Positions 16,549 to 29,358 of a DNA stretch of 43,640 nt are shown here, one piece after another. Position 1 is the first letter of the stretch. Every line of letters starts with the position of its first letter. Made by a program: the position numbers and the translations under genes. The stretch is from Pseudobutyrivibrio sp. (GTDB taxonomy: Bacteria > Bacillota > Clostridia > Lachnospirales > Lachnospiraceae), in contig JAIKWH010000002.1 of assembly GCA_024684955.1 (NCBI GenBank), positions 1-43,640 on the forward strand, given 5' to 3'. A model generated the notes under the pieces. That model searched no databases. It was given only the letters and a program-made list of their open reading frames with translations, and was not told the DNA's origin.

Positions 16549-16580
16549 AAAAAGGTGAAGCAAATGCTTCACCTTTTTTT
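16549..16580. terminator. Bidirectional terminator between thrC and the CheX-like gene
   Basis: AAAAAGGTGAAGCA and TGCTTCACCTTTTT form a 14-bp stem with a 2-nt loop; A-runs and T-runs flank both sides. It can serve thrC on the plus strand and the convergent minus-strand operon. Confidence 0.92.
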
Positions 16581-17460
16581 AATATGATATTATGATGTGA
16601 ATTGTTCCAAAGGAATATACGATAGGTAAGTCTATCAGTTTGTTCTGAGGTTTTAGGGTGACATCAGTAATAACTGCAGGTGGCTCTAATTCAATGTCTA
16701 CGGAAAATTGATTTGAGACATTTACAACATACAGGCCATTTAGCAGATTGAGGAAATCCTCCATTGCAGCCACAACATATTCGTTGAATTCGGAGAATTC
16801 TTCCTTTGCATATTTGGAAGCGAAAGCCATGGCTGTCTCTCTGTCGCACTCAATGTGGGTATCGTAAGTGCCCTTTGATATAAGGCGCTGAGTAACGCCA
16901 AAGGTAACTGGGAATTCATCGATTACCATAGGTGTGAGAGGAGTAAAGTTCTCATCCACAAAACGAATAAGGGAATTAAACAAAAGCTCTATGTACATAG
17001 AGTTTCTATCATCCTTTTGCGTCTCTGAAACCCAGAAAAATTTTTCAATTAGTTTTTTGATAACGGCCTGATTCTCTGTATCTAGGGAAAAATCAGAAAG
17101 TTCTGCCTCATTTTTGTAATCGAAAATAATTCTCTCAAAATCTTCGTAAGAGAAAACCCCATCCTCAACAAATATTTGGCAGAGCAAAACAAAGTCAGGA
17201 GTCTGGGTATGCATCATATCCTCCACCTGTTCCTTTGTCAGATAGCCTCTTTCTATAGCAATCTCACCAAAGCGACGATCCTCTCTAGTCTGAACAAATA
17301 AACATTCATCAACTTCTCTGGCAGTCATAAGCCCCTCGTTGATGGCCAGAGTGCCAAGTTTTAGTTTGGACTGAGATATGCGGCCTAAGGCGTCAAAAAG
17401 TTGTTGCTGATTTATAATTCCTCGCTGGAGGAGATAGTTGCCCAAGAACTGTGTATACAT
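16579..17460 (-). CDS. MshEN-like repeat protein with CheX-like domain
   Basis: A 293-residue cytosolic protein. The N-terminal part has three repeats with glycines at 7, 36 and 65, an exact 29-residue period; repeats two (34-57) and three (63-86) fit the pattern [RK].G..A...G........... Q known from MshEN domains, which bind cyclic di-GMP through two 24-residue motifs set 5 apart. The C-terminal part, from about residue 150, looks like a CheX/CheC-type domain: MEDFLNLLNG resembles the phosphatase helix and is followed by PP about 22 residues later. CheX proteins dephosphorylate CheY~P. The gene lies 3 nt after a CheY-like receiver gene, whose stop overlaps this gene's GGAGG site. Role inferred, not shown. 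Confidence 0.75.
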   Translation of the reverse strand: MYTQFLGNYLLQRGIINQQQLFDALGRISQSKLKLGTLAINEGLMTAREVDECLFVQTREDRRFGEIAIERGYLTKEQVEDMMHTQTPDFVLLCQIFVEDGVFSYEDFERIIFDYKNEAELSDFSLDTENQAVIKKLIEKFFWVSETQKDDRNSMYIELLFNSLIRFVDENFTPLTPMVIDEFPVTFGVTQRLISKGTYDTHIECDRETAMAFASKYAKEEFSEFNEYVVAAMEDFLNLLNGLYVVNVSNQFSVDIELEPPAVITDVTLKPQNKLIDLPIVYSFGTIHIIISY

Positions 17461-17463
17461 AGG

Positions 17464-17844
17464 TTAATTTCCTCCAAAACGAAGTTCGAAAATTTCTTTT
17501 ATTTGAGATTTCTCAAATGGCTTTTGGATAAAATCCTTTGCGCCAAGCTGAATAGCTTTTTTAAGTTGGGACTGGGTACCAACAGAAGAAACTACAATAA
17601 TTAAAGCATCAGAATCAATTGATTTGATTTCTTCGAGAGCCTCAGTTCCATCTTTTTCAGGCATAACAATGTCCATGAAAACTATATCAGGCTTGTTTTC
17701 TTTATACAGTTCTACAGCCTCGGCGCCATTTTTGGCTTCAACGAAAATAGCACCATCGCCGCACTCTGAAACGGCATCAATAAGTTGCTTTCTAGCCAAA
17801 ACCGAGTCATCGCAAACCAGGACTTTAATGTTAGTTAAATCCAT
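17464..17844 (-). CDS. CheY-like stand-alone response regulator
   Basis: A 126-residue single receiver domain with no output domain. The acidic pocket is CDD (Asp12, Asp13), the phosphoacceptor Asp58 lies in IVFMDIVMP, the switch residue Ser86/Ser87 in VVSS and Lys108 in QKPF. It signals by protein contact, as CheY does. It is the first gene of a two-gene minus-strand operon with the MshEN/CheX-like protein, a likely partner or phosphatase. No histidine kinase or flagellar gene is nearby, so the input and target are unknown. A GGAGAG site precedes the start. Confidence 0.95.
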   Translation of the reverse strand: MDLTNIKVLVCDDSVLARKQLIDAVSECGDGAIFVEAKNGAEAVELYKENKPDIVFMDIVMPEKDGTEALEEIKSIDSDALIIVVSSVGTQSQLKKAIQLGAKDFIQKPFEKSQIKEIFELRFGGN

Positions 17845-18040: not shown

Positions 18041-18087
18041 TTAACTGGCGAGAGCTTCTAGATATTTTGATTAATTGGAGGTTTGTT

Positions 18088-18447
18088 ATGGATTTTATGA
18101 CTATTTTTGATTTGATTGTTGGGGTTTTGGGAGTCTACCTTACTTTTTCAGGCTTAAAAAATTTTAAAGATGGCACTGTGGATGTTATGCTTATCACAGC
18201 CCAGGAAATGACCAAGTGCAAGGACGTTCAGGGGCTTTCAAAGTTTCTGATGCCAAAGCAGATTATATTCGGACTGTGCTGCATAGTCTTTGGTATTCAA
18301 GGTTTCCTTTGCGATGCCAAAATTCTGCAGATTTCGGATTCAATTATCAAAACAGTTAATGTGGTTTTTCTAATTTTGTTTGTGCTTGTCTGGATTATGT
18401 TTTCTTATTTCATCAATCGGGCAAAAAAGAATTATATAGGAGATTAA
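18088..18447 (+). CDS. Small membrane protein of unknown function
   Basis: A 119-residue protein; start ATG 18088 follows TTGGAGG, and the in-frame upstream ATG at 18067 lacks such a site. Three hydrophobic segments are seen (about 5-22, 60-80 and 88-110), so it is probably an integral membrane protein with a short loop rich in charged residues at 25-55. I do not recognise a family. It lies 76 nt upstream of a two-component system on the same strand and could be co-transcribed; no terminator lies between them. Whether it acts with the kinase is unknown. Confidence 0.75.
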   Translation: MDFMTIFDLIVGVLGVYLTFSGLKNFKDGTVDVMLITAQEMTKCKDVQGLSKFLMPKQIIFGLCCIVFGIQGFLCDAKILQISDSIIKTVNVVFLILFVLVWIMFSYFINRAKKNYIGD

Positions 18448-18523
18448 TTCATTCATAATTCTTGCTTTTAACACTTAGATGTCACATAAGTTGGCGAAAA
18501 TGAACTTGTATTAGGAGGACAGG

Positions 18524-19201
18524 ATGAAAAATATACTTGTTGTAGACGACGAAGAAAAAATCAGGTCTATAATTAGAAAATATGGCGAGTTTGAAGGATA
18601 CTCCATCACAGAGGCAAAGGACGGCATGGATGCCATCGAAAAGGTAAAGGCCGGCGGAGATTATGATGTGATAATCATGGATGTTATGATGCCTGAACTA
18701 GATGGATTCTCTGCTTGCACAGAGATTAAAAAGATAAAAGACATTCCTGTGATTATGCTTTCTGCCAGAGGTGAGGAATATGACAGGATTCACGGTTTTG
18801 AGGCTGGAGTAGATGACTATGTGGTAAAGCCATTCTCTCCAAAAGAGCTTATGATGCGTGTCAATGTGGTTACCACTAGAGGCAAGGCGACTCCTGCTGA
18901 GGAGACTGCTGAAATCTTTAGGTACGAGGGCTTGGAGATCAACTTTACAGCCCGCACAGTATCCATAGATGGCAAGCGCATCGATATGTCACCAAAGGAA
19001 TACGAGTTGCTCTTTTACCTGGTTAGAAACAAAAATATTGCCCTGGCCAGGGAAAAACTTATCACTGAGGTGTGGGGTTATGACTACTATGGTGATGACC
19101 GTACCCTTGATACCCATATCAAACTGCTGAGAAACAGTCTGGGAGAATACAGAAAATTACTTGTCACCCTCAGAGGTGTAGGATATAGATTTGAGGCCTA
19201 G
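18524..19201 (+). CDS. OmpR/PhoB-family response regulator
   Basis: A 225-residue regulator with an N-terminal receiver (Asp8, Asp9, phosphoacceptor Asp53 in IIMDVMMPELDG, Lys in VVKPFSP) and a C-terminal winged-helix DNA-binding domain (SPKEYELLFYLVRNK, DRTLDTHIKLLRNSL, LRGVGYRFEA). It acts as a transcription factor controlled by phosphorylation from the kinase encoded 21 nt downstream. AGGAGGA precedes the start. The regulon cannot be read from this window; candidates include its neighbours. Confidence 0.96.
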   Translation: MKNILVVDDEEKIRSIIRKYGEFEGYSITEAKDGMDAIEKVKAGGDYDVIIMDVMMPELDGFSACTEIKKIKDIPVIMLSARGEEYDRIHGFEAGVDDYVVKPFSPKELMMRVNVVTTRGKATPAEETAEIFRYEGLEINFTARTVSIDGKRIDMSPKEYELLFYLVRNKNIALAREKLITEVWGYDYYGDDRTLDTHIKLLRNSLGEYRKLLVTLRGVGYRFEA

Positions 19202-19222
19202 TATCAGGCGAGGAGATTTCCA

Positions 19223-20863
19223 TTGAGAAGAAGTCATACCAGTATTAAATGGAAAATTTTTATAGTATTCTTGGTATTTGCCATAGTGCTCTTGGGAGTA
19301 CTATGGTTTTTTCAGGTTGTTTATTTAAATGACTTTTACAAGTACATCAAAAAGATAGAGACCGAGTCAGTGATTGATCAGATAGAGGAGGTCCTTATTA
19401 AAGAGGAGGATTGTGCCTCTGAAATAGAAAAGATTGCCGCCAGAAAGAATTTGGGAGTCTTTATCACTGACTCGGCTGGTAACAAGATTTATAACGCAGA
19501 ATACATTTTTAATTCTCAGATTTCATCTATGCCAAGTTACATGTTTACCCTCTTTTATGAGGAGGCCCGTTCCAACGGGGGCGAGGCAGTCATTGAATAC
19601 AAGGGCAATAGGATGATGAACCTCTATCTCAGTGGCAAGGCTGCTGCCAAGGAGGCAGAGAGCGAGGCTGACTCCACTTCTTCTGCATCCCTAAAGATGG
19701 AGGATGTGGCAAGGCCTCAGGATATACTGGATGAGGCGGGGATACCTAACAATAGCCCTGTGAATCAGGGAACTGGAAAGGTGGGCTACACCGAGCCTTA
19801 TGACCAGCCTCAGCACGAGTTTATGCAAAACCTGGGTAATGATATGGCAGAGTCTGTTATTTATGTCAGAATCATTTACGTGGATGGGGTAGAAAATGTA
19901 CTGATGGTTAATTCTGTTTTGACTCCAGTGGATTCTACAGTATCAACCCTAAAAACTCAGCTTGTAGTTATTTCATTTATAATTGCAATCCTGGCCTTTG
20001 GCCTGGCTGCCATGCTTTCTAGGAGCGTTTCCAAGTCTATTATTAGGCTAAATGACAGGGCAAAGAAACTTGCCGCTGGAGATTATAATGTTAAATTTGA
20101 TTCTGTGGATTATGCAGAGGTGGCACAACTTTCCGACACCCTTAATTTTGCCGCCACAGAGCTGGGCAAGACAGATGAACTGCAAAAAGAACTGATAGCC
20201 AATGTATCCCACGACCTTAGGACACCTCTTACTATGATAAAGGGATATGCTGAGGTGATGAGAGATATTCCAGGAGAAAATACCCCTGAGAATGTCCAGG
20301 TTGTTATAGATGAGACAGAGAGATTGACAGATCTCGTAAATGACATGCTTGATATATCTAGACTAAAGGCCGGCACCATTACTATTGATCCAGAGGAATA
20401 CAATTTTACAGCCAGTGTCCGCTACGTCCTGGAGAGATATAACAAACTGAGAGAGGTGGATGGTTACACTATCAATTTCCTCTATGACGAAGAGGTCTAT
20501 GTATACGCTGACGAAAAGAAAATGTATCAGGTCCTTTACAATCTGGTAAATAATGCCATCAATTACACTGGGGAGGACAAGACAGTTACGGTCCGCCAGA
20601 TTGTGGATGGTGATATTATGAGAATTGAGGTAACTGACACTGGAAAGGGTGTTAGCCCAGAGGACATCCCTTATGTTTGGGATAGGTATTACAAGGATAA
20701 ATCAGCCCACAAGAGGGCAATACAGGGTACAGGCCTGGGTCTATCCATAGTAAAAAGTGTCTTGGAATTACATGGGGCAAAATACGGAGTGTCATCTTTA
20801 AAGAATCATGGAGCCACATTCTGGTTTGAGTTAAAAATTGATCAAGATTATAGTGAAGAATAA
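19223..20863 (+). CDS. Membrane sensor histidine kinase
   Basis: A 546-residue kinase paired with the preceding regulator. The start is TTG 19223 with GAGGAG at good distance. Layout: membrane segment about 11-31, extracytoplasmic sensor region about 32-240 with a low-complexity Ala/Ser/Glu stretch near 140-160, second membrane segment about 243-268, HAMP region, HisKA with phosphorylated His330 in NVSHDLRTPLTMIKGYAEV, and an HATPase domain with N-box NLVNNAINYT, DTGKGV and GTGLGLSIV. The signal sensed is unknown. A strong terminator follows, so this ends the transcription unit. Confidence 0.95.
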   Translation: MRRSHTSIKWKIFIVFLVFAIVLLGVLWFFQVVYLNDFYKYIKKIETESVIDQIEEVLIKEEDCASEIEKIAARKNLGVFITDSAGNKIYNAEYIFNSQISSMPSYMFTLFYEEARSNGGEAVIEYKGNRMMNLYLSGKAAAKEAESEADSTSSASLKMEDVARPQDILDEAGIPNNSPVNQGTGKVGYTEPYDQPQHEFMQNLGNDMAESVIYVRIIYVDGVENVLMVNSVLTPVDSTVSTLKTQLVVISFIIAILAFGLAAMLSRSVSKSIIRLNDRAKKLAAGDYNVKFDSVDYAEVAQLSDTLNFAATELGKTDELQKELIANVSHDLRTPLTMIKGYAEVMRDIPGENTPENVQVVIDETERLTDLVNDMLDISRLKAGTITIDPEEYNFTASVRYVLERYNKLREVDGYTINFLYDEEVYVYADEKKMYQVLYNLVNNAINYTGEDKTVTVRQIVDGDIMRIEVTDTGKGVSPEDIPYVWDRYYKDKSAHKRAIQGTGLGLSIVKSVLELHGAKYGVSSLKNHGATFWFELKIDQDYSEE

Positions 20864-20995: not shown

Positions 20996-21027
20996 AAGGA
21001 AACTAGTTTTTGGGGAATAGTTTCTTT
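20996..21027 (+). promoter_or_regulatory. Candidate TetR operator / leader dyad
   Basis: AAGGAAACTA (20996-21005) pairs with TAGTTTCTTT (21018-21027) with one wobble, and the perfect palindrome AAACTAGTTT (21000-21009) is nested in the left arm. It lies between the promoter and the tetR ribosome site, where an autoregulatory operator would be expected. Confidence 0.5.
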
Positions 21028-21045
21028 TTCAAAAAGGAGAAATGC

Positions 21046-21606
21046 ATGGTAGATAAAATATTGGAGGGAGCCTTATCTTTATACAGGAGCAAGGGGCTGA
21101 AATTTACAATGGATGAGCTTGCTATTGCTTTAAAGATGAGTAAGAAGACAATATATAAATTGTACGTGGACAAGCAGGAGTTGGTTTGCGCAATGGTAAA
21201 CTACGCCTTTGACAATATCAAGGAGACAGAGGACAGCATTTATTATGACGAGACTCTTTCTACAATAGAAAAGTTAAAGGGTATACTGACTGCTTTGCCA
21301 GAAAATTATTCTGGCTTTAATTATGATAATGTATATATGTTTAAGGACAAGTATCCCCTGGCCTATAGAGACTTGTGCGTCAGATTGGAAAGTGACTGGG
21401 ACAAGACCTTGGAACTCTTGCAGGAGGCCATGGACCAAGGGCTGGTACGCCAGGTGGACAAGGATTTGTTTAAGTTTACATATGAGGCTGCAGTGGAGCA
21501 TTTGCTTACCAGCAATTACTTGTCTAGAAAAAATATTGATTACCCAACTGCCTTTAGACAGGTGGTAGATATTATTGTTGAGGGAATAATTGTAAAGGAA
21601 AAATAA
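21046..21606 (+). CDS. TetR-family transcriptional regulator
   Basis: A 186-residue regulator. Start ATG 21046 is chosen because AGGAG (21035-21039) sits 6 nt before it; an in-frame upstream codon at 21010 would add 12 residues and lacks a site. The helix-turn-helix is at about 20-45 (FTMDELAIALKMSKKTIYKLYVDK style), followed by an all-helical ligand-binding domain. As first gene of a glycoside operon it most likely represses the operon and responds to a sugar or intermediate, although sugar operons more often use LacI or AraC regulators. Its stop codon directly abuts the GH2 start codon. Confidence 0.93.
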   Translation: MVDKILEGALSLYRSKGLKFTMDELAIALKMSKKTIYKLYVDKQELVCAMVNYAFDNIKETEDSIYYDETLSTIEKLKGILTALPENYSGFNYDNVYMFKDKYPLAYRDLCVRLESDWDKTLELLQEAMDQGLVRQVDKDLFKFTYEAAVEHLLTSNYLSRKNIDYPTAFRQVVDIIVEGIIVKEK

Positions 21607-24069
21607 ATGGCACAAAGAATTTACCTAGATAGAAAGTGGCGCTTTTTTAAAGAATTCAGTGAGGAATTAACAAGTGAATTATCGGATAGAGGACAGGTGG
21701 TAGATCTCCCACATACAGTGGAGACTACCCCTTATTCTAGTTTTGATGAAAGTATTTACCAAAAAGTTTGCTGCTATCAGAAAATGATATATGCTCCAAA
21801 CCAGTGGAAGGACCAGGTTATAAATCTGACCTTTGAGGGAGTTGCCCATTATTTTCAGGTCTATATCAACGGCAATCTGGTGGGAGACCATGCATGTGGG
21901 TATACAGCCTACACCATTGATATTTCAGATTCTCTAGTATATGGAAAAGAAAACCTAATATCAGTAAAGGTGGATAGCAATGAGACCCTCAATCAGCCAC
22001 CTTTTGGCTTTGTGATTGATTATATGACCTACGGTGGCATATACAGGGATGTGTATTTTGAAATTCAAAACAGGGCCAGAATCAAGGATATTTACTTTCA
22101 GCCCAATCTGTTGGAGAGAATATCTACCAACAAGAGAAGCACAAAGCAGATCATGGCCATGAAGCCCCAGGGCATTTTAAAGAGCAGCTGTCATTTTTCT
22201 GAGGAGGTCTTTGATTTGGCCTTTGAGGAGAAGGCTTTTATCAGGCAATACATGGACGACCAATTGCTCTTTTCCCAGCCGGTTAGCGGGCTAGAAAAGG
22301 AGGAAGGGGGATACATACTTTCTCTTTCTTCTGCGCCTACCCCAGTAAAACTATGGGATATACTGTCCCCTAGTCTTTACACAATAAAAACAGAACTTTT
22401 AATAGACGACCAGGTGGTGGATTCTAGGATTGACACCATTGGATTTAGGACCTCAGAGTTTACGAAAAATGGCTATTATCTCAACGGCAGAAAGGTAAAA
22501 ATCCGCGGTTTAAACAGGCACCAATCCTATGCCTATGTGGGCTATGCCATGCCTGAGTCTATGCAGAGACAGGATGCAAAAATCCTCAAGGAGGAACTAG
22601 GCCTAAATGGAGTCAGGACCTCCCATTATCCACAGTCCCAGTATTTTATCGACGAGTGCGATAGGCAGGGGCTCCTGGTATTCACAGAGATTCCAGGATG
22701 GCAGCATATAGGGGATGAAAAGTGGCAGGATCAGGCCCTGGATAATGTGGCTGATATGATTCTCCAGTATAGGAATCATCCATCCATCATTCTCTGGGGT
22801 GTGAGAATCAATGAATCCCAGGATAATGATGAATTTTATAAAAGGACAAATGAGCTGGCTCACAAACTGGACAAGACAAGACCTACCGGGGGAGTCAGGG
22901 CCAATAAAAAAAGCAGCCTATTAGAGGATGTTTACACCTACAATGACTTTATCCATTCAGGGGATAATGAGGGATGCGACAAAAAAGAAAATGTAACATC
23001 TGATATGGAAAAGCCGTATCTGATTACAGAGTACAATGGTCACATGTATCCAACAAAGCCTTTTGACGATGAGATACATAGACAAAACCATCTCCTAAGA
23101 CATGCCAAGGTATTGGACAGCGTAAGTGAGCAGGCAGATATAGCAGGCTCCTTTGGCTGGTGCATGTTTGATTACAATACCCACAAGGATTTTGGGTCTG
23201 GTGATAGGATCTGTTATCACGGGGTAATGGATATGTTTAGGAATCCTAAATTGGCAGCCAGCGTATACTCAGTTTATTCAGAGGTGGATACAGAACTGAC
23301 CGTTACATCATCTTTTGATGTGGGAGAGCATCCAGCCAGTGTAAGAGGGGAATCATACATTCTCACAAATGCAGATTCTGTAAAGATGTACAAAAATGGC
23401 ACTTTATTAAAGGAGTATTTCCCTGGTGATTCTCCATATAAAAACCTGCCTCACGGCCCAATTTTAATAGATGATTATATTGGCGAGGAACTGACAAAAA
23501 ATGAAAATCTTTCTGAGAGAACCGGAAAGATAGTAAGTCTAATCCTAAATCAGGTTGCCCTAAAAGGATATATGATGAGGCCGGAACTTTTGCTCAAAGC
23601 CTTATATCTAAGGGTATTTTGCAACATTGACATGAAAAAAGCTACTGCTTGGTACAACAAGTACGTAGGGGATTGGGGCGCTGAGTCTAGAGAGTACAAG
23701 TTTTCAGCCATAAAAGATGGCAAGGTAGTAAAGAGCATTACCAAGTCTGACTCAAAAGAATGCTTTATAAACACCAGGATTAGCCACACCCTGCTGACAG
23801 AATGGCATACCTATGATGTGGCCCAGGTGAGAATTTCCATTGTGGACCAAAATGATAATAGGCTTTACTACTACAACGAGCCTATTAGATTCAAGGTGGA
23901 TGGACCAATTGAAATAATAGGACCTGATGTGGTTTCGCCTATTGGAGGAGCCACCGGTTTATACATCAAATCAAAGGGAAAGGATGGAGACGGTACCATT
24001 ACAATCCAAAGTGGCTCCTGTCCGGATGTGATTATTCCTGTATCGGTAGAGTGTTTGTTGGAGAGGTAA
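21607..24069 (+). CDS. Glycoside hydrolase family 2 enzyme (beta-galactosidase/beta-glucuronidase type)
   Basis: An 820-residue enzyme without signal peptide, so it should act in the cytosol. Layout: sugar-binding jelly-roll about 1-160, Ig-like domain about 165-290, TIM barrel about 295-580, then C-terminal beta domains. Barrel motifs RGLNRHQ and VRTSHYPQS are typical of the family. Predicted acid/base is Glu403 in WGVRINES (more often GNE) and nucleophile Glu475 in LITEYNGH; the 72-residue spacing fits GH2. Family members cleave beta-galactosides, beta-glucuronides or beta-mannosides with retention; the substrate here is not decidable from sequence alone. It directly follows tetR and precedes a GT-like protein. 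Confidence 0.92.
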   Translation: MAQRIYLDRKWRFFKEFSEELTSELSDRGQVVDLPHTVETTPYSSFDESIYQKVCCYQKMIYAPNQWKDQVINLTFEGVAHYFQVYINGNLVGDHACGYTAYTIDISDSLVYGKENLISVKVDSNETLNQPPFGFVIDYMTYGGIYRDVYFEIQNRARIKDIYFQPNLLERISTNKRSTKQIMAMKPQGILKSSCHFSEEVFDLAFEEKAFIRQYMDDQLLFSQPVSGLEKEEGGYILSLSSAPTPVKLWDILSPSLYTIKTELLIDDQVVDSRIDTIGFRTSEFTKNGYYLNGRKVKIRGLNRHQSYAYVGYAMPESMQRQDAKILKEELGLNGVRTSHYPQSQYFIDECDRQGLLVFTEIPGWQHIGDEKWQDQALDNVADMILQYRNHPSIILWGVRINESQDNDEFYKRTNELAHKLDKTRPTGGVRANKKSSLLEDVYTYNDFIHSGDNEGCDKKENVTSDMEKPYLITEYNGHMYPTKPFDDEIHRQNHLLRHAKVLDSVSEQADIAGSFGWCMFDYNTHKDFGSGDRICYHGVMDMFRNPKLAASVYSVYSEVDTELTVTSSFDVGEHPASVRGESYILTNADSVKMYKNGTLLKEYFPGDSPYKNLPHGPILIDDYIGEELTKNENLSERTGKIVSLILNQVALKGYMMRPELLLKALYLRVFCNIDMKKATAWYNKYVGDWGAESREYKFSAIKDGKVVKSITKSDSKECFINTRISHTLLTEWHTYDVAQVRISIVDQNDNRLYYYNEPIRFKVDGPIEIIGPDVVSPIGGATGLYIKSKGKDGDGTITIQSGSCPDVIIPVSVECLLER

Positions 24070-24072
24070 ATC

Positions 24073-25542
24073 ATGGAAAAAAGCAAAGTGATTTTTGGAA
24101 ATCAAATTTCTGAGAAAGCCTATGAAAAAGCCCAAAAGACAAAGGCTAAAAGTTTGAAAAAATACGGTGATGACTCCGGGGCCAACTATCCCATTTACGT
24201 AGATAGGAATGAGACAATTTATGACAGTCTTGGGGTCTATGACATAAGGTTAAAAGAGGGGGATAGTCCCTATTCCCTAGATAGAGATAAGGGAATAATC
24301 GTGGGAAATATCAGGATGGGCTTTGGCCACTACAGGATATCCATGGCCATTGCCTCTGCAGCCCATGCCCTGGGATATATTCCATATTGGATGGATTTAA
24401 ATTCTTATCCTCAAACCACCTGCACCAAGATAATAGGTGCGCAAAATGACCTGTATTCACTAGGGTCTAGATTATCAAAAAATTCTCTCTTTAATAAATT
24501 CATTTGGGAGCCCCTTAATTATGAGGGCTTTAGAAAACTGTCTTACAATGCCTCAGATCAAAAAAATGCAGAACTGATGGCTCCAGTCTTTGAGAATATA
24601 CCAAAGGATATTCCAGTGATTGGGACCCACGCATGGCCTGCCCAGGCAGCAATCCATGGGGGCATGGCCTATGTGGTAAATGCCATTCCAGACAACTGGC
24701 CAATGGCTCTGCATTTTGCAGAGGGGGCTGTTCATACTATTCAGTGCAAAAACGCCTATATGGGCTACAGGATTTTAAACGGCATGGATGGGGACAAGGT
24801 GTTAAATCCTATGCCTAATGATTCCCTATTTTACACAGGCCATTATGTGGACCATGAACTGGTGGTCAATATTGAAAAGGACTGCCAGGCCAGGCTGGAT
24901 AGAAAGGCAAAGGGGAAGCCTATCCGTTTCCTTCTGACCATTGGGGGAGCCGGGGCTCAAAGGGAAATATTTGCCGAGATTATCAGGCACTTGCTAAATG
25001 ACATAAAAGAAAATAAGGCAATGCTCTATGTAAATGTGGGGGATTACAAAAATGTCTGGGAGGAACTCTTGACTGAGATCCCTGAGATGAAAGAACTTGC
25101 CACAGAGCATTTTGACAATTTTTCTGACACTAAAGAATTTGCCGCCCAGGCAATTGACGGGGATGTTTATGGCATTCACGGATTCTACCACGAGAATATT
25201 TTTGAGGCTGTATATGCTACAAACCTACTTATGAGGTCTTGTGATGTGCTGATTACAAAGCCTTCAGAGTTGTCATTTTATCCTGTTCCAAAACTCTTTA
25301 TAAAGAGGGTGGGAAAGCATGAAATGTGGGGTGCAATTCATTCTGCAGAAATGGGGGATGGCAGCTTAGAATGCAGGGATATTCCTCATACCCTGCAAAT
25401 GATAGACATGTTTATGAAAGACGATAGGCTTTTATCTGATATGGTGGGGTCTATTTGTGATAATAATAAAATCGGTCTTTACAACGGGGCTTATGAGGCT
25501 GTAAAGATTGCTATGGGACTGAAGAAAATCAAAAACCTATAA
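24073..25542 (+). CDS. Putative GT-B-fold glycosyltransferase-like protein of unknown role
   Basis: A 489-residue soluble protein that I cannot place firmly in a family. Residues 75-100 (GIIVGNIRMGFGHYRIS then an Ala-rich helix) resemble the N-terminal glycine loop and GH..A motif of MurG/MGDG-synthase-like enzymes; LLTIGGAGAQRE near 288-300 resembles the start of a C-terminal nucleotide-binding half; and ITKPSELSFYPVP at 394-406 sits where GT28-type proteins have the TKPGG donor loop. It therefore looks like a GT-B transferase or a relative such as an epimerase or phosphorylase. It lies inside a glycoside-degradation operon, 3 nt after GH2 and 18 nt before the symporter, which is unusual for a transferase. 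Confidence 0.6.
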   Translation: MEKSKVIFGNQISEKAYEKAQKTKAKSLKKYGDDSGANYPIYVDRNETIYDSLGVYDIRLKEGDSPYSLDRDKGIIVGNIRMGFGHYRISMAIASAAHALGYIPYWMDLNSYPQTTCTKIIGAQNDLYSLGSRLSKNSLFNKFIWEPLNYEGFRKLSYNASDQKNAELMAPVFENIPKDIPVIGTHAWPAQAAIHGGMAYVVNAIPDNWPMALHFAEGAVHTIQCKNAYMGYRILNGMDGDKVLNPMPNDSLFYTGHYVDHELVVNIEKDCQARLDRKAKGKPIRFLLTIGGAGAQREIFAEIIRHLLNDIKENKAMLYVNVGDYKNVWEELLTEIPEMKELATEHFDNFSDTKEFAAQAIDGDVYGIHGFYHENIFEAVYATNLLMRSCDVLITKPSELSFYPVPKLFIKRVGKHEMWGAIHSAEMGDGSLECRDIPHTLQMIDMFMKDDRLLSDMVGSICDNNKIGLYNGAYEAVKIAMGLKKIKNL

Positions 25543-25560
25543 ATAAAGGAGGGGTTTACT

Positions 25561-26988
25561 ATGGAGAGAAAGAAACCTTTAACAGGGAAAATTATTTGGC
25601 TATTTGCAATAGGACAACTGGGGTGGAGCCTCCTGTCGGCCCTTATCACCAACTGGGTTACTACCTTTTACCAGCCAGATGCAGAGATGATGGAGGCTGG
25701 ACAAAAGGTGTTCTTTGCCCAGGACAAGGTGGTCTTTGGACTGCTTACAATATTGGGTGGTGTATTTGCTTTTGGTAGATTGTGGGATGCCATCACAGAT
25801 CCTTTGATCGCCAATTTCTCAGACAAGAGCAAAAATCCAAAGGGTAGGAGAATACCCTTTATGGCCAAGGCAGCCATACCATTTTCCATTGCTGCAGTTT
25901 TAGTATACTGGTGTCCAGTCAATGGTAATTCTCCTGTAAATGCCTGGTGGGTTTTTGTCATGCTCATTTTGTTCTACCTGTTTATGACCATGTATTGCAC
26001 ACCATACAACTCACTGATTGCAGAATTATCTGGCAACCAAAAGGAACTGACTGATATATCTACTGCGATTTCTTTTACCTTTATTTTTGGTTCGGCCATT
26101 GGCTATGCGGCTCCTTATATTTGGGGACCTCTGACTGGGGTCTTTAATGACCGGGTAATGGCCATCAGGGTCACCTTCACCATCCTGGCAGCCATTGGTT
26201 TGATATGTCTTTTGGTGCCAGTCTTTACAATAAAAGAAAAGGATTATGTGGTTGTAAAGGATGAGGATATTGATTCCAAATCCAATGTTATTCAGTCATT
26301 GGCCAAGACTTTTAAAAACAAGGACTTTGTCACATTTGTCACCTCGGATGTGTGTTATTGGATAGCAATCACCATGTTCCAGACCGGATTGCCATTTTTT
26401 GTTACATCCCTTATGAAATTGGAGGAGTCTTGGAATACAACCTTGTATATAGGCATGACCCTGCTTTCTGTCCTTTGCTACCTGCCGGTAAATATGGTTG
26501 TTAGAAAGGGTAAATTGCAAAAGAAGCATCTGATTATGTTTGCCTTTATACAGTTCTCTATCGTATATCTGATTACATCATTTGCCTCAGGCACAGCAGG
26601 TACAAACGATGGTCTGGTATTTGGACTGATAGTGGTGGCTTTGGCAGCTGTTCCTATGGCTATCCTTGGCATTTTGCCTCAGACAATCGTTGCTGACGTG
26701 GCAAAAGAAGATGAGATATTGACAGGGGAGAATAGGGATGGAATGTTTTTTGCAGCCCGCACATTCTCTATGAAATTAGGTCAGGCTATTGCAACAGTTC
26801 TCTTTACCAGCCTGGCTACTATTGGAGCCAGCTATGATGAAGAGGGCAATTTGCTTACTGCCACAGGCCAGGGTTATAGGGTGGCAGCGGTTGTGTGTGC
26901 CATTTGCTGCTTTGGCGCTGCAATCATTCTCAATTTCTACAATGAGAAAAAGATTATGGCTACCCTCAAAGAACACGAGTTACATTAG
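25561..26988 (+). CDS. GPH-family (MelB-like) sugar:cation symporter
   Basis: A 475-residue membrane transporter with about 12 membrane segments. Family features are the GRLWDAITDPLIANFSDKS segment near residues 70-90, homologous to the MelB loop with its cation-binding aspartates, and KNPKGRRIPFM just after it. GPH carriers import melibiose, raffinose-type or other galactosides, xylosides or glucuronides with Na+, Li+ or H+. Position between a GH2 and a GH36 glycosidase points to an oligosaccharide with alpha-galactosyl and possibly beta-linked residues. AAGGAGG gives a strong ribosome site. Confidence 0.93.
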   Translation: MERKKPLTGKIIWLFAIGQLGWSLLSALITNWVTTFYQPDAEMMEAGQKVFFAQDKVVFGLLTILGGVFAFGRLWDAITDPLIANFSDKSKNPKGRRIPFMAKAAIPFSIAAVLVYWCPVNGNSPVNAWWVFVMLILFYLFMTMYCTPYNSLIAELSGNQKELTDISTAISFTFIFGSAIGYAAPYIWGPLTGVFNDRVMAIRVTFTILAAIGLICLLVPVFTIKEKDYVVVKDEDIDSKSNVIQSLAKTFKNKDFVTFVTSDVCYWIAITMFQTGLPFFVTSLMKLEESWNTTLYIGMTLLSVLCYLPVNMVVRKGKLQKKHLIMFAFIQFSIVYLITSFASGTAGTNDGLVFGLIVVALAAVPMAILGILPQTIVADVAKEDEILTGENRDGMFFAARTFSMKLGQAIATVLFTSLATIGASYDEEGNLLTATGQGYRVAAVVCAICCFGAAIILNFYNEKKIMATLKEHELH

Positions 26989-27021
26989 TTTGTATTTTGC
27001 CAATGATTTAGGAGAGAGATT

Positions 27022-29358
27022 ATGATTAAGGTTGAAAATAATGTTTTCTTTCTTAATACAAAAAATACAAGTTACATTTTTGATGTATTAGAGACAGGCC
27101 AGTTGCAGCACCTCTATTATGGCAGGAGTATTCACATAGGTGATGTGTCTCATCTTAGGCAAAAGCACGCCTTTTTGCCAGGCAATACCATATCCTATGA
27201 CAAGGGACATAGTAGTTTTTCCCTAGAGGATGTGGATTTGGAATTCTCCGCTATTGGAAAGGGAGATATCAGGGAGCCTATGGTGGAGGTCCTCTGCCAT
27301 GACCACTCCTCATCTTTAGATTTTGTCTTTGATTCCTATGAGATTTTGGAGGGGAAGGAGGCCTTTGAAAACCTGCCATCCTCCTATGATGATGCTAAAA
27401 AGGTCCAGACTCTCAATGTGACTTTAAAAGATAAGAACAAGGGCTTTACCCTGGTCCTGTCATATTATGTATATGAGGACTGTGACGTAATCAGCCGGTC
27501 TGTAAAATTTATTAATTCTACAGAGGAGTCAGTAAAGATAAAGAGAATCCTGTCTCTGCTTTTGGACTTTGATGAAAAGGATATGAAAATCACCTCCTTT
27601 CATGGGGGATGGACCAGGGAGATGAAGAGGGATGATTTGGTCCTTTCTGCTGGGAAATATGTTAATTCTTCATTCACCGGTACCAGTTCCAACAGGACGA
27701 ATCCTTTGATATTCCTATCAGACAAGGATTCAAATGAAACTGCAGGGTCAGTGTTTGGATTTAATCTAATATATTCAGGCAACCACTATTCCGCAGTGGA
27801 GGTGTCTGCCTTTAATAAAACCAGGTTTGTGACAGGAATCAATCCTATGAATTTTGGCTGGCTCCTAGAGCCTGGCCAGGATTTTAGGGCACCGGAGGCT
27901 GTGATGACTTACTCTGCCAAAGGCTTTAGGCAGGCCAGTCACAATTTCCACCATTTTGTGAGAGAGCATATTACAAGAGGCCCATGGAAAAAGAAGGAGA
28001 GGCTTGTTCTCATCAATAGTTGGGAGGCTTCCTACTTTAACTTTGATGAGGGCAAACTCCTCAAACTGGCAAGGGCAGCCAAAAATCTTGGCATAGAATT
28101 GTTTGTTATGGATGATGGCTGGTTTGGACAGAGAGACGACGATACCAAGGCCCTGGGAGACTGGGATATAGTAAATAAAAAGAAATTGCCAAAGGGATTG
28201 GAGGGCCTGTCAAAGAAACTAAACGATATGGGCATGGCCTTTGGCCTATGGGTGGAGCCGGAAATGGTTAATGTGGATTCTAATCTCTACAAAAACCATC
28301 CAGATTGGGCAATAGATATCCCAGACCAAGACCACTCTGAGGGCAGGAACCAAAGGCTCCTGGATCTGTGCAACCCTGATGTGGTGGACTATTTGATTGA
28401 TACCATGAGAAAGGTCTTTTCCACCCCTGGTCTTTCCTACATTAAATGGGATATGAACAGGAATTTCTCCGACTATTACTCAAAGTATTTGCCAAAGGAA
28501 AGGCAGGAGGAGGTGGGCCATCGGTATGTCCTTGGCCTCTATAGACTCCTGGATACTTTGACTGGAGAATTCCCAGAGATTCTCATGGAGGGATGTGCCA
28601 GCGGAGGCAATCGTTTTGACCTGGGAGCCCTTTCATATTTTCCGCAGATATGGGCCAGTGACAACTCAGATGCTGTCTGTAGGCTAAGTATTCAGGATGG
28701 ATATTCCTATGGATACCCTCAGTGCTGCTACACAGCTCATGTGTCATCTTGTCCAAATCACCAGACCCTTAGGGTGACCCCTTTAGAATCCAGATTTGCG
28801 GTGTCCGCCTTTGGAGTACTAGGATATGAGCTTAATTTAATTGATGCAAAGCCAGAGGAACTAGCCGCAATAAAAGACCAGGTCAGCCTCTATAAAAAAT
28901 ACAGAAAGGTCCTGCAATTTGGAGACTTTTATAGACTGAGGTCAGACAACGTTTATCAGTGGGAAATCCTAGATAGGCAAAAGACCTGCGGCCTTACTTT
29001 TATAATGCAAAAGGAGGCTATGCCAGGGGAGGAATATCTAAAGATTAAATGTGCAGGCTTGCAGGCTGACAAGGTATATCACTTTTTTGGCAGGAGCCTG
29101 GAATATAATTTAAAGGGATTTGGAGACCTGGTAAACACCGTTGCCCCAGTCCATATAAAGCAGGATTCCTTGGTCCACAATATGGTGGCAAAATTTGTAA
29201 AGATGCCAGGGGAGACAGAGGATTATACATTATATGGAGATAATCTAATGGAGGCAGGCCTTAAATTACACCAGGCCTTTGTGGGAACTGGCTACAATGA
29301 TCAGGTAAGATATTTCCCAGACTATAGCAGTCGATTGTATTTTATAGAGATGAAATAA
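27022..29358 (+). CDS. Alpha-galactosidase, glycoside hydrolase family 36
   Basis: A 778-residue cytosolic enzyme that releases terminal alpha-galactose from oligosaccharides such as melibiose, raffinose or stachyose. It has the N-terminal beta-supersandwich, a TIM barrel from about 330 and a C-terminal beta domain. Catalytic residues: nucleophile Asp477 in KWDMNRNFSD and acid/base Asp547 in WASDNSDA, matching numbering and spacing of known GH36 enzymes. CASGGNRFDLG and MDDGWFG are further hallmarks. It has no signal peptide, consistent with import by the preceding symporter. Last gene of the operon, ended by a strong terminator. Confidence 0.97.
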   Translation: MIKVENNVFFLNTKNTSYIFDVLETGQLQHLYYGRSIHIGDVSHLRQKHAFLPGNTISYDKGHSSFSLEDVDLEFSAIGKGDIREPMVEVLCHDHSSSLDFVFDSYEILEGKEAFENLPSSYDDAKKVQTLNVTLKDKNKGFTLVLSYYVYEDCDVISRSVKFINSTEESVKIKRILSLLLDFDEKDMKITSFHGGWTREMKRDDLVLSAGKYVNSSFTGTSSNRTNPLIFLSDKDSNETAGSVFGFNLIYSGNHYSAVEVSAFNKTRFVTGINPMNFGWLLEPGQDFRAPEAVMTYSAKGFRQASHNFHHFVREHITRGPWKKKERLVLINSWEASYFNFDEGKLLKLARAAKNLGIELFVMDDGWFGQRDDDTKALGDWDIVNKKKLPKGLEGLSKKLNDMGMAFGLWVEPEMVNVDSNLYKNHPDWAIDIPDQDHSEGRNQRLLDLCNPDVVDYLIDTMRKVFSTPGLSYIKWDMNRNFSDYYSKYLPKERQEEVGHRYVLGLYRLLDTLTGEFPEILMEGCASGGNRFDLGALSYFPQIWASDNSDAVCRLSIQDGYSYGYPQCCYTAHVSSCPNHQTLRVTPLESRFAVSAFGVLGYELNLIDAKPEELAAIKDQVSLYKKYRKVLQFGDFYRLRSDNVYQWEILDRQKTCGLTFIMQKEAMPGEEYLKIKCAGLQADKVYHFFGRSLEYNLKGFGDLVNTVAPVHIKQDSLVHNMVAKFVKMPGETEDYTLYGDNLMEAGLKLHQAFVGTGYNDQVRYFPDYSSRLYFIEMK

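Follow-up and report, generated by a model that had tools for sequence, protein, structure and literature searches.

A CheX-like protein with an MshEN-type repeat module, paired with or fused to a CheY-type receiver, in Lachnospiraceae and related families

Introduction

In model bacteria, the known influence of cyclic di-GMP (c-di-GMP) on swimming is exerted mostly via the motor or via separate adaptors. The closest described relatives of the protein analyzed here are MshEN domains and CheX phosphatases. In the MshEN domain of Vibrio cholerae MshE (PDB code 5htl; NCBIfam NF053729), R9, Q32, R38, and Q61 are named contacts of c-di-GMP, and Leu29 is part of a guanine-binding triangle (PMC5013675). 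The catalytic motif of CheX is ExxN (PMC3510030), in which the acidic residue makes a salt bridge with the lysine of the receiver and the Asn orients water (PMC3035606).

MshEN co-occurs with CheA and with the phosphatase CheX in proteins according to Wang et al. 2016 (PMC5013675), so the two-domain architecture described below, which the first-pass annotation of the locus had put forward as possibly undescribed, is already on record. That record is one sentence of section 12, in which receiver pairing, a four-repeat structure, a triple fusion, and a function do not appear, and no experiments on MshEN-CheA or MshEN-CheX proteins were found in the parts of the article consulted (PMC5013675). 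In Borrelia, a link of c-di-GMP to CheX or CheY3 has been proposed from the swimming of mutants; the receptor proposed there, PlzA, is a separate protein (PMC4013479), whereas the module considered here is part of the predicted phosphatase polypeptide itself. No functional study of the pair described here was recognized in the literature searched, most subscription journals lying outside its coverage. Judged by these searches, a known combination gains new detail in its pairing with a receiver, the triple fusion, the arrangement in four repeats, and the co-occurrence with CheA.

We use the name MCX for the MshEN-CheX protein family. Its gene was analyzed in a window of 43,640 nucleotides (the whole stretch of DNA studied) from a Pseudobutyrivibrio contig, where it lies next to a receiver gene:

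16579..17460, minus strand: MCX gene, 293 amino acids, assigned by profile matches and AlphaFold2
17464..17844, minus strand: stand-alone CheY-type receiver, 126 amino acids, Response_reg match of 89.8 bits, proposed substrate of MCX

MCX combines a messenger-type module with a putative enzyme that would end the signal of a receiver, next to that receiver. We consider it somewhat probable that MCX serves the adjacent receiver as its dedicated phosphatase, with its activity or substrate access set by c-di-GMP, and that this receiver is most likely charged by CheA.

Results and Discussion

Overall structure of MCX and sampling of the family

Positions 16579-17460 form an open reading frame on the minus strand only (start 17460, end 16579), and a search of the genome assembly returned this single MCX match. 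A pattern search of the whole window for a sigma-28-type promoter gave no match. The AlphaFold2 model, computed from the window MCX and 47 aligned sequences (mean pLDDT 88.4, pTM 0.81), consists of eight helices arranged in four pairs (residues 2-30, 35-60, 64-84, and 89-118, together spanning region 2-118), followed by two helices and an α/β domain (residues 178-292). The first-pass annotation had proposed a profile search of both halves. The MshEN half was confirmed well above its cut-off (63.1 against 38 bits), and the Pfam CheX match of the other half stayed just below the gathering cut-off (24.4 against 27 bits). Matches of DUF4388, FumaraseC_C, and EpsG over the repeat region were all below cut-off and were taken as cross-matches of the repeat.

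The family search gave 97 rows at E<=1e-14, of which 70 were fetched and examined for neighbors; nine of the 97 have frames longer than 430 amino acids, and seven of these nine are among the 70. Most counts below refer to 83 MCX proteins, which comprise the one in the window, three from Pseudobutyrivibrio contigs, and 11 from outside the family Lachnospiraceae. This set leaves out L082 (a duplicate of L069) and the short proteins L062-L064, L073, L091, L092, and L100, six of these seven having a receiver upstream; it retains L050, in which an in-frame stop removes the first 43 residues. The duplicate L082 is still counted in the tallies of 79 receivers and of 84 proteins in the pattern search, and in the first tally of residue 54.

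The repeat module and its relation to MshEN

From glycines at residues 7, 36, and 65, the first-pass annotation had proposed three repeats with an exact 29-residue period. These glycines are present and the period holds, but the number of repeats rises to four. When the profile built from 67 aligned sequences (the window MCX and 66 relatives) was compared with itself, four exact, ungapped repeats of period 29 emerged (z 3.6-7.3 against column shuffles), and the best three offsets for repeat 3 were 34, 5, and 92. Position 94 is Cys in the window MCX and Gly in 31 of the 67 aligned proteins; this Cys is probably why the fourth repeat was first overlooked.

17377..17448, minus strand: repeat 1, residues 5-28, degenerate (Phe for the motif Arg, Ile for Gln)
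17290..17361, minus strand: repeat 2, residues 34-57, c-di-GMP motif I (K34 L35 G36 ... V50 L54 Q57)
17203..17274, minus strand: repeat 3, residues 63-86, c-di-GMP motif II (R63 F64 G65 ... V79 M83 Q86)
17116..17187, minus strand: repeat 4, residues 92-115, degenerate (C94, Y115 for Gln)

As had been supposed, repeats 2 and 3 correspond to the 24-residue motifs of MshEN, on the evidence of both the NCBIfam c-di-GMP_motif match and the alignment to MshE. Residues 29-86 of the MCX family profile, which hold these two repeats, align to residues 4-61 of V. cholerae MshE (E 1.6e-5), and K34, Q57, R63, and Q86 of MCX fall on R9, Q32, R38, and Q61 of MshE. The c-di-GMP_motif profile is matched at E<=0.01 by 46 of the 47 members of A1. 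The relaxed 24-residue MshEN pattern from the literature matches the window MCX at residues 34 and 63, 29 residues apart, and no pair at this spacing arose in any of 16,800 shuffled versions of 84 family proteins. MCX therefore shares with MshEN the two 24-residue motifs, the 5-residue spacer, and contacts in register with MshE 4-61. It differs in having four repeats, the outer two of which are degenerate, in carrying the module on a CheX-like domain instead of an ATPase, and in the polar character of residue 54 in most relatives.

At all twelve contact positions checked in the two motifs, the window MCX has a residue of the allowed set; its repeats 1 and 4 lack the ligand-contact residues. 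Across the 83 proteins, six of these positions are well kept (K/R34 in 75, G36 in 77, Q57 in 80, R/K63 in 73, G65 in 77, and Q86 in 79). Two pattern matches 29 residues apart were found in only 13 of the 84 MCX proteins of at least 240 amino acids, and two guanine-contact positions are relaxed. The window MCX has Leu at residue 54, the counterpart of VcMshE L29; a hydrophobic residue or Cys occupies this position in only 22 of 83 proteins, Asn in 25 of 28 downstream-receiver rows (one of them a duplicate) and in all seven fusions, and His in 19 of 45 upstream-receiver rows. Residue 50, the counterpart of VcMshE L25, is L/I/V/M/F in 54 of 83 and otherwise often Ala. Given the relaxed residues 50 and 54 and the few pattern pairs, either the predicted ligand binding has better support in the window MCX than in its relatives at large, or the ligand is now contacted in a different way. 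In the lineages with a conserved Asn or His at residue 54, the contacts of the pocket may have changed, and these residues could mean an altered ligand.

The same relaxation would also fit a CheX-type phosphatase of the partner receiver whose repeat module is past nucleotide binding and now acts as a scaffold, dimerization, or localization element. Such a course has a precedent in MshEN domains that lost binding, for example Xanthomonas XpsE (PMC5013675), and repeats 1 and 4 of MCX remain recognizable in sequence and model although their contact residues are gone. We nevertheless regard it as unlikely, because K/R34, G36, Q57, R/K63, G65, and Q86 are kept in 73-80 of 83 proteins, the window MCX has allowed residues throughout, and GGDEF domains occur in every MCX genome (see below). 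In the preferred reading, MCX would bind c-di-GMP.

The CheX-like domain

The C-terminal half of MCX had been described as CheX-like, an assignment supported by the Pfam CheX match (E 3.2e-5) and by similarity at profile level to CheX proteins of solved structure.

16585..16929, minus strand: CheX-like α/β domain, residues 178-292, assigned by Pfam CheX, profiles, and AlphaFold2
16747..16758, minus strand: codons of D235-x2-N238, the counterpart of the catalytic E-x2-N pair of CheX

Profile A2 matches CheX of T. maritima (PDB codes 1squ and 1xko) at E 5e-4 and CheX of Borrelia (PDB code 3hzh) at 2e-3, the family profile matches the Borrelia protein at E 0.003, and 32 of 47 members match Pfam CheX at E<=0.01. 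In the Borrelia alignment, D235 and N238 of MCX land on an E and an N, which we take for the published ExxN pair. Of the 83 MCX proteins, 82 retain the acidic-x2-Asn pair, with D at the acidic position in 40 (including the window MCX) and E in 42. MCX and CheX appear to have in common an α/β core, predicted for MCX, and an acidic-x2-Asn pair on a long helix, whereas MCX often has D instead of E, carries a predicted N-terminal sensor module, and has its own paired receiver. MCX is a putative phosphatase, and in the window MCX the Asp would stand in for the Glu of CheX.

The sole loss of the pair is found in L061 (2599-3426, 275 amino acids), which also lacks a receiver neighbor; its repeat module retains G36, Q57, F64, G65, and Q86. 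One other family, f39, includes versions (L089, L090, L091, L092, and L100) in which the repeats are strongly degenerate or missing, the CheX pair is intact, and a receiver lies upstream.

The partner receiver

The receiver gene of the window (17844-17464) ends 3 bp upstream of MCX. A receiver is adjacent to or fused with 81 of the 83 MCX proteins examined. By script, it lies directly upstream in 46, directly downstream in 27, and in the same open reading frame in seven; the remaining case, L043, was scored as having none because of a long open reading frame and showed a downstream receiver when read by hand. The median gap between the two genes is 4 bp. Among 79 adjacent receivers, a count that includes one duplicate row and six receivers beside short proteins, the phospho-Asp and the Lys are present in all 79, the two acidic residues in 79 and 78, and the Ser/Thr in 78. 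The adjacent receiver of G070 (L076:4105-4464) is strongly divergent, with the second acid and Ser/Thr positions changed.

The seven fusions sit at two places on the MCX tree, indicating two origins, and both places lie inside the downstream-receiver group. The four fusions that were scanned carry both Response_reg and CheX matches. Besides L061, only L037 (2977-3846) among the 83 has no receiver neighbor; it keeps the D-x2-N pair together with a divergent OmpR-type regulator and kinase and looks as if the receiver gene alone was lost. Among short CheX-only proteins, L062-L064 have a receiver upstream and L073 does not.

Distribution and co-occurrence with chemotaxis genes

At E<1e-14, MCX occurs in 92 of 299 Lachnospiraceae genomes, which represent 298 genera at about one genome per genus. 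Near-full-length MCX was also found in 11 genomes of eight other families when 398 genomes of the phylum were searched, and a receiver is adjacent in all 11 loci.

CheA (PF02895) is present in 88 of the 92 MCX genomes and in 66 of the 207 genomes without MCX, FliM in 85 against 68, and GGDEF domains in all 92 against 160; these counts use the same threshold and exclude G273 (CheX only), and the Fisher tests applied to them treat genomes as independent, ignoring kinship. FliM is missing from seven MCX genomes and CheA from four. CheA without a FliM match is found in G040, G068, G120, and G147, which points to CheA rather than to the flagellum itself; G168 has FliM without CheA, and G070, G174, and G235 have neither. 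A link to type IV pili was considered and set aside, because PilB (a T2SSE match below E 1e-100) shows only moderate enrichment (57 of 92 against 66 of 207). The genome of the window (86% complete) contains CheA, FliM, and 16 GGDEF matches over the cut-off, and it has no T2SSE match better than 2e-55.

Gene neighborhoods and the kinase

The window belongs to the upstream-receiver group. An OmpR-type regulator on the opposite strand lies upstream of the pair in 12 of the 46 upstream-receiver loci, most of which were examined with a flank of only 1.5 kb, and in L037. Where the flank reaches far enough, a kinase is found next to this regulator (L002-L004, L036, L037, and L039), as in the window (regulator 18524-19201, kinase 19223-20863). 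Neither was seen in 28 downstream-receiver loci or seven fusions, where the flanks covered 1.5-8 kb, or less when the contig ended earlier.

With a regulator and kinase beside the pair, CheA is not the sole candidate kinase in the upstream-receiver group. The pair might stand outside chemotaxis or work with the nearby OmpR-type sensor kinase, the correlation with CheA then being a by-product of lineage. The three MCX genomes without both CheA and FliM would fit such an arrangement, among them G070, which is 99% complete and in which the receiver is divergent and the neighbor of MCX is a GGDEF-EAL gene. We hold this to be rather improbable, since the nearby kinase has its own regulator, has no counterpart in the flanks, of up to 8 kb, of 28 downstream-receiver loci and seven fusions, and CheA accompanies MCX in nearly all genomes. 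Among kinase families, CheA alone was found to accompany the pair in either gene order, and for this reason we propose it as the kinase of the receiver.

Other neighbors were recorded as well. In the window, a small membrane-protein-like open reading frame, the OmpR-type regulator, and the histidine kinase (18067-20863) adjoin the pair in a gene order that is conserved in Pseudobutyrivibrio (L002). Beyond them, positions 21010-29358 appear by eye to be a carbohydrate-use region with TetR-like regulator, β-galactosidase-like, sugar transporter-like, and α-galactosidase-like genes. A GGDEF-EAL gene stands divergent from MCX at a distance of 119-170 bp in L041, L043, and L076, an arrangement seen in part of the downstream-receiver group, with coordinates recorded for G002 and G188; L038 has an EAL-type open reading frame 1.4 kb from MCX. 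Adjacency to GGDEF/EAL genes was rejected as a general feature, as it applies to four of 91 open reading frames, all in the downstream-receiver group, a count that is low by construction because many loci have a flank of only 1.5 kb.

The target of MCX

MCX co-varies with its partner receiver and not with the CheY of the flagellar operon. Across 21 genomes, the distances between MCX proteins correlate with those between partner receivers (rho 0.78, 0 of 2000 permutations as high) and hardly with those between operon CheYs (rho 0.19, 177 of 2000); for upstream receivers only (16 genomes), both values are weaker (partner rho 0.48, 17 of 2000; operon CheY 0.10, 529 of 2000). Short proteins, L050, and, in the downstream group, L076 were excluded from this comparison. 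In the receiver tree, one clade unites the upstream-group receivers (SH-aLRT 99) and a second one 22 flagellar-operon CheYs (100), and the other forks are poorly resolved because of the few columns. Of the receivers in fusions, six of seven group with partner receivers and none with operon CheYs, L058 being unplaced.

In L075 (G213), flhG-PilZ-cheB-cheA-cheW-cheC-cheD-sigma28-like open reading frames precede the pair, with four open reading frames between, and rpsB follows it (names assigned by eye except for CheA, a profile match). Although this location, the strong co-occurrence with CheA and FliM, and the known role of CheX as a phosphatase of phosphorylated CheY (PMC3510030) could suggest the canonical flagellar CheY as the main substrate of MCX, with the adjacent receiver as a regulator or competitor, this is very unlikely given the co-variation, the grouping of the fused receivers, and the presence in the window's genome of a FliY-like protein (named by eye) next to a distinct CheY beside FliM.

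Proposed mechanism

As a dedicated phosphatase of the adjacent receiver, MCX would insert D235 and N238 of its CheX-like domain into the active site of the receiver and direct a water molecule onto the phospho-aspartate, as in CheX. c-di-GMP would occupy one MshEN-type pocket formed by repeats 2 and 3. Binding would move the repeat module against the CheX domain and so alter either how well the partner receiver gains access or how fast hydrolysis proceeds. The receiver would most likely obtain its phosphate from CheA and, alongside the CheY of the flagellar operon, provide a second output or a sink for phosphate, and c-di-GMP would thereby bias the output of CheA in the decision to swim or to settle. 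The sequences themselves show the domains, the repeats, the receiver as a paired or fused partner, the retained catalytic and phosphorylation residues, the co-variation, and the co-occurrence with CheA and GGDEF; ligand binding, enzymatic activity, CheA as the kinase, what the receiver acts on, and the direction of control are inferred.

More broadly, and more tentatively, MCX and its receiver may constitute a c-di-GMP-gated branch of CheA signaling in Lachnospiraceae and related families, condensed in some genera into a single sensor-phosphatase-receiver protein. If true, this would provide a direct link from c-di-GMP to chemotaxis phosphorylation in a large family, with MCX in 92 of the 299 genomes, and biochemical work would have a pair or a natural fusion at hand.
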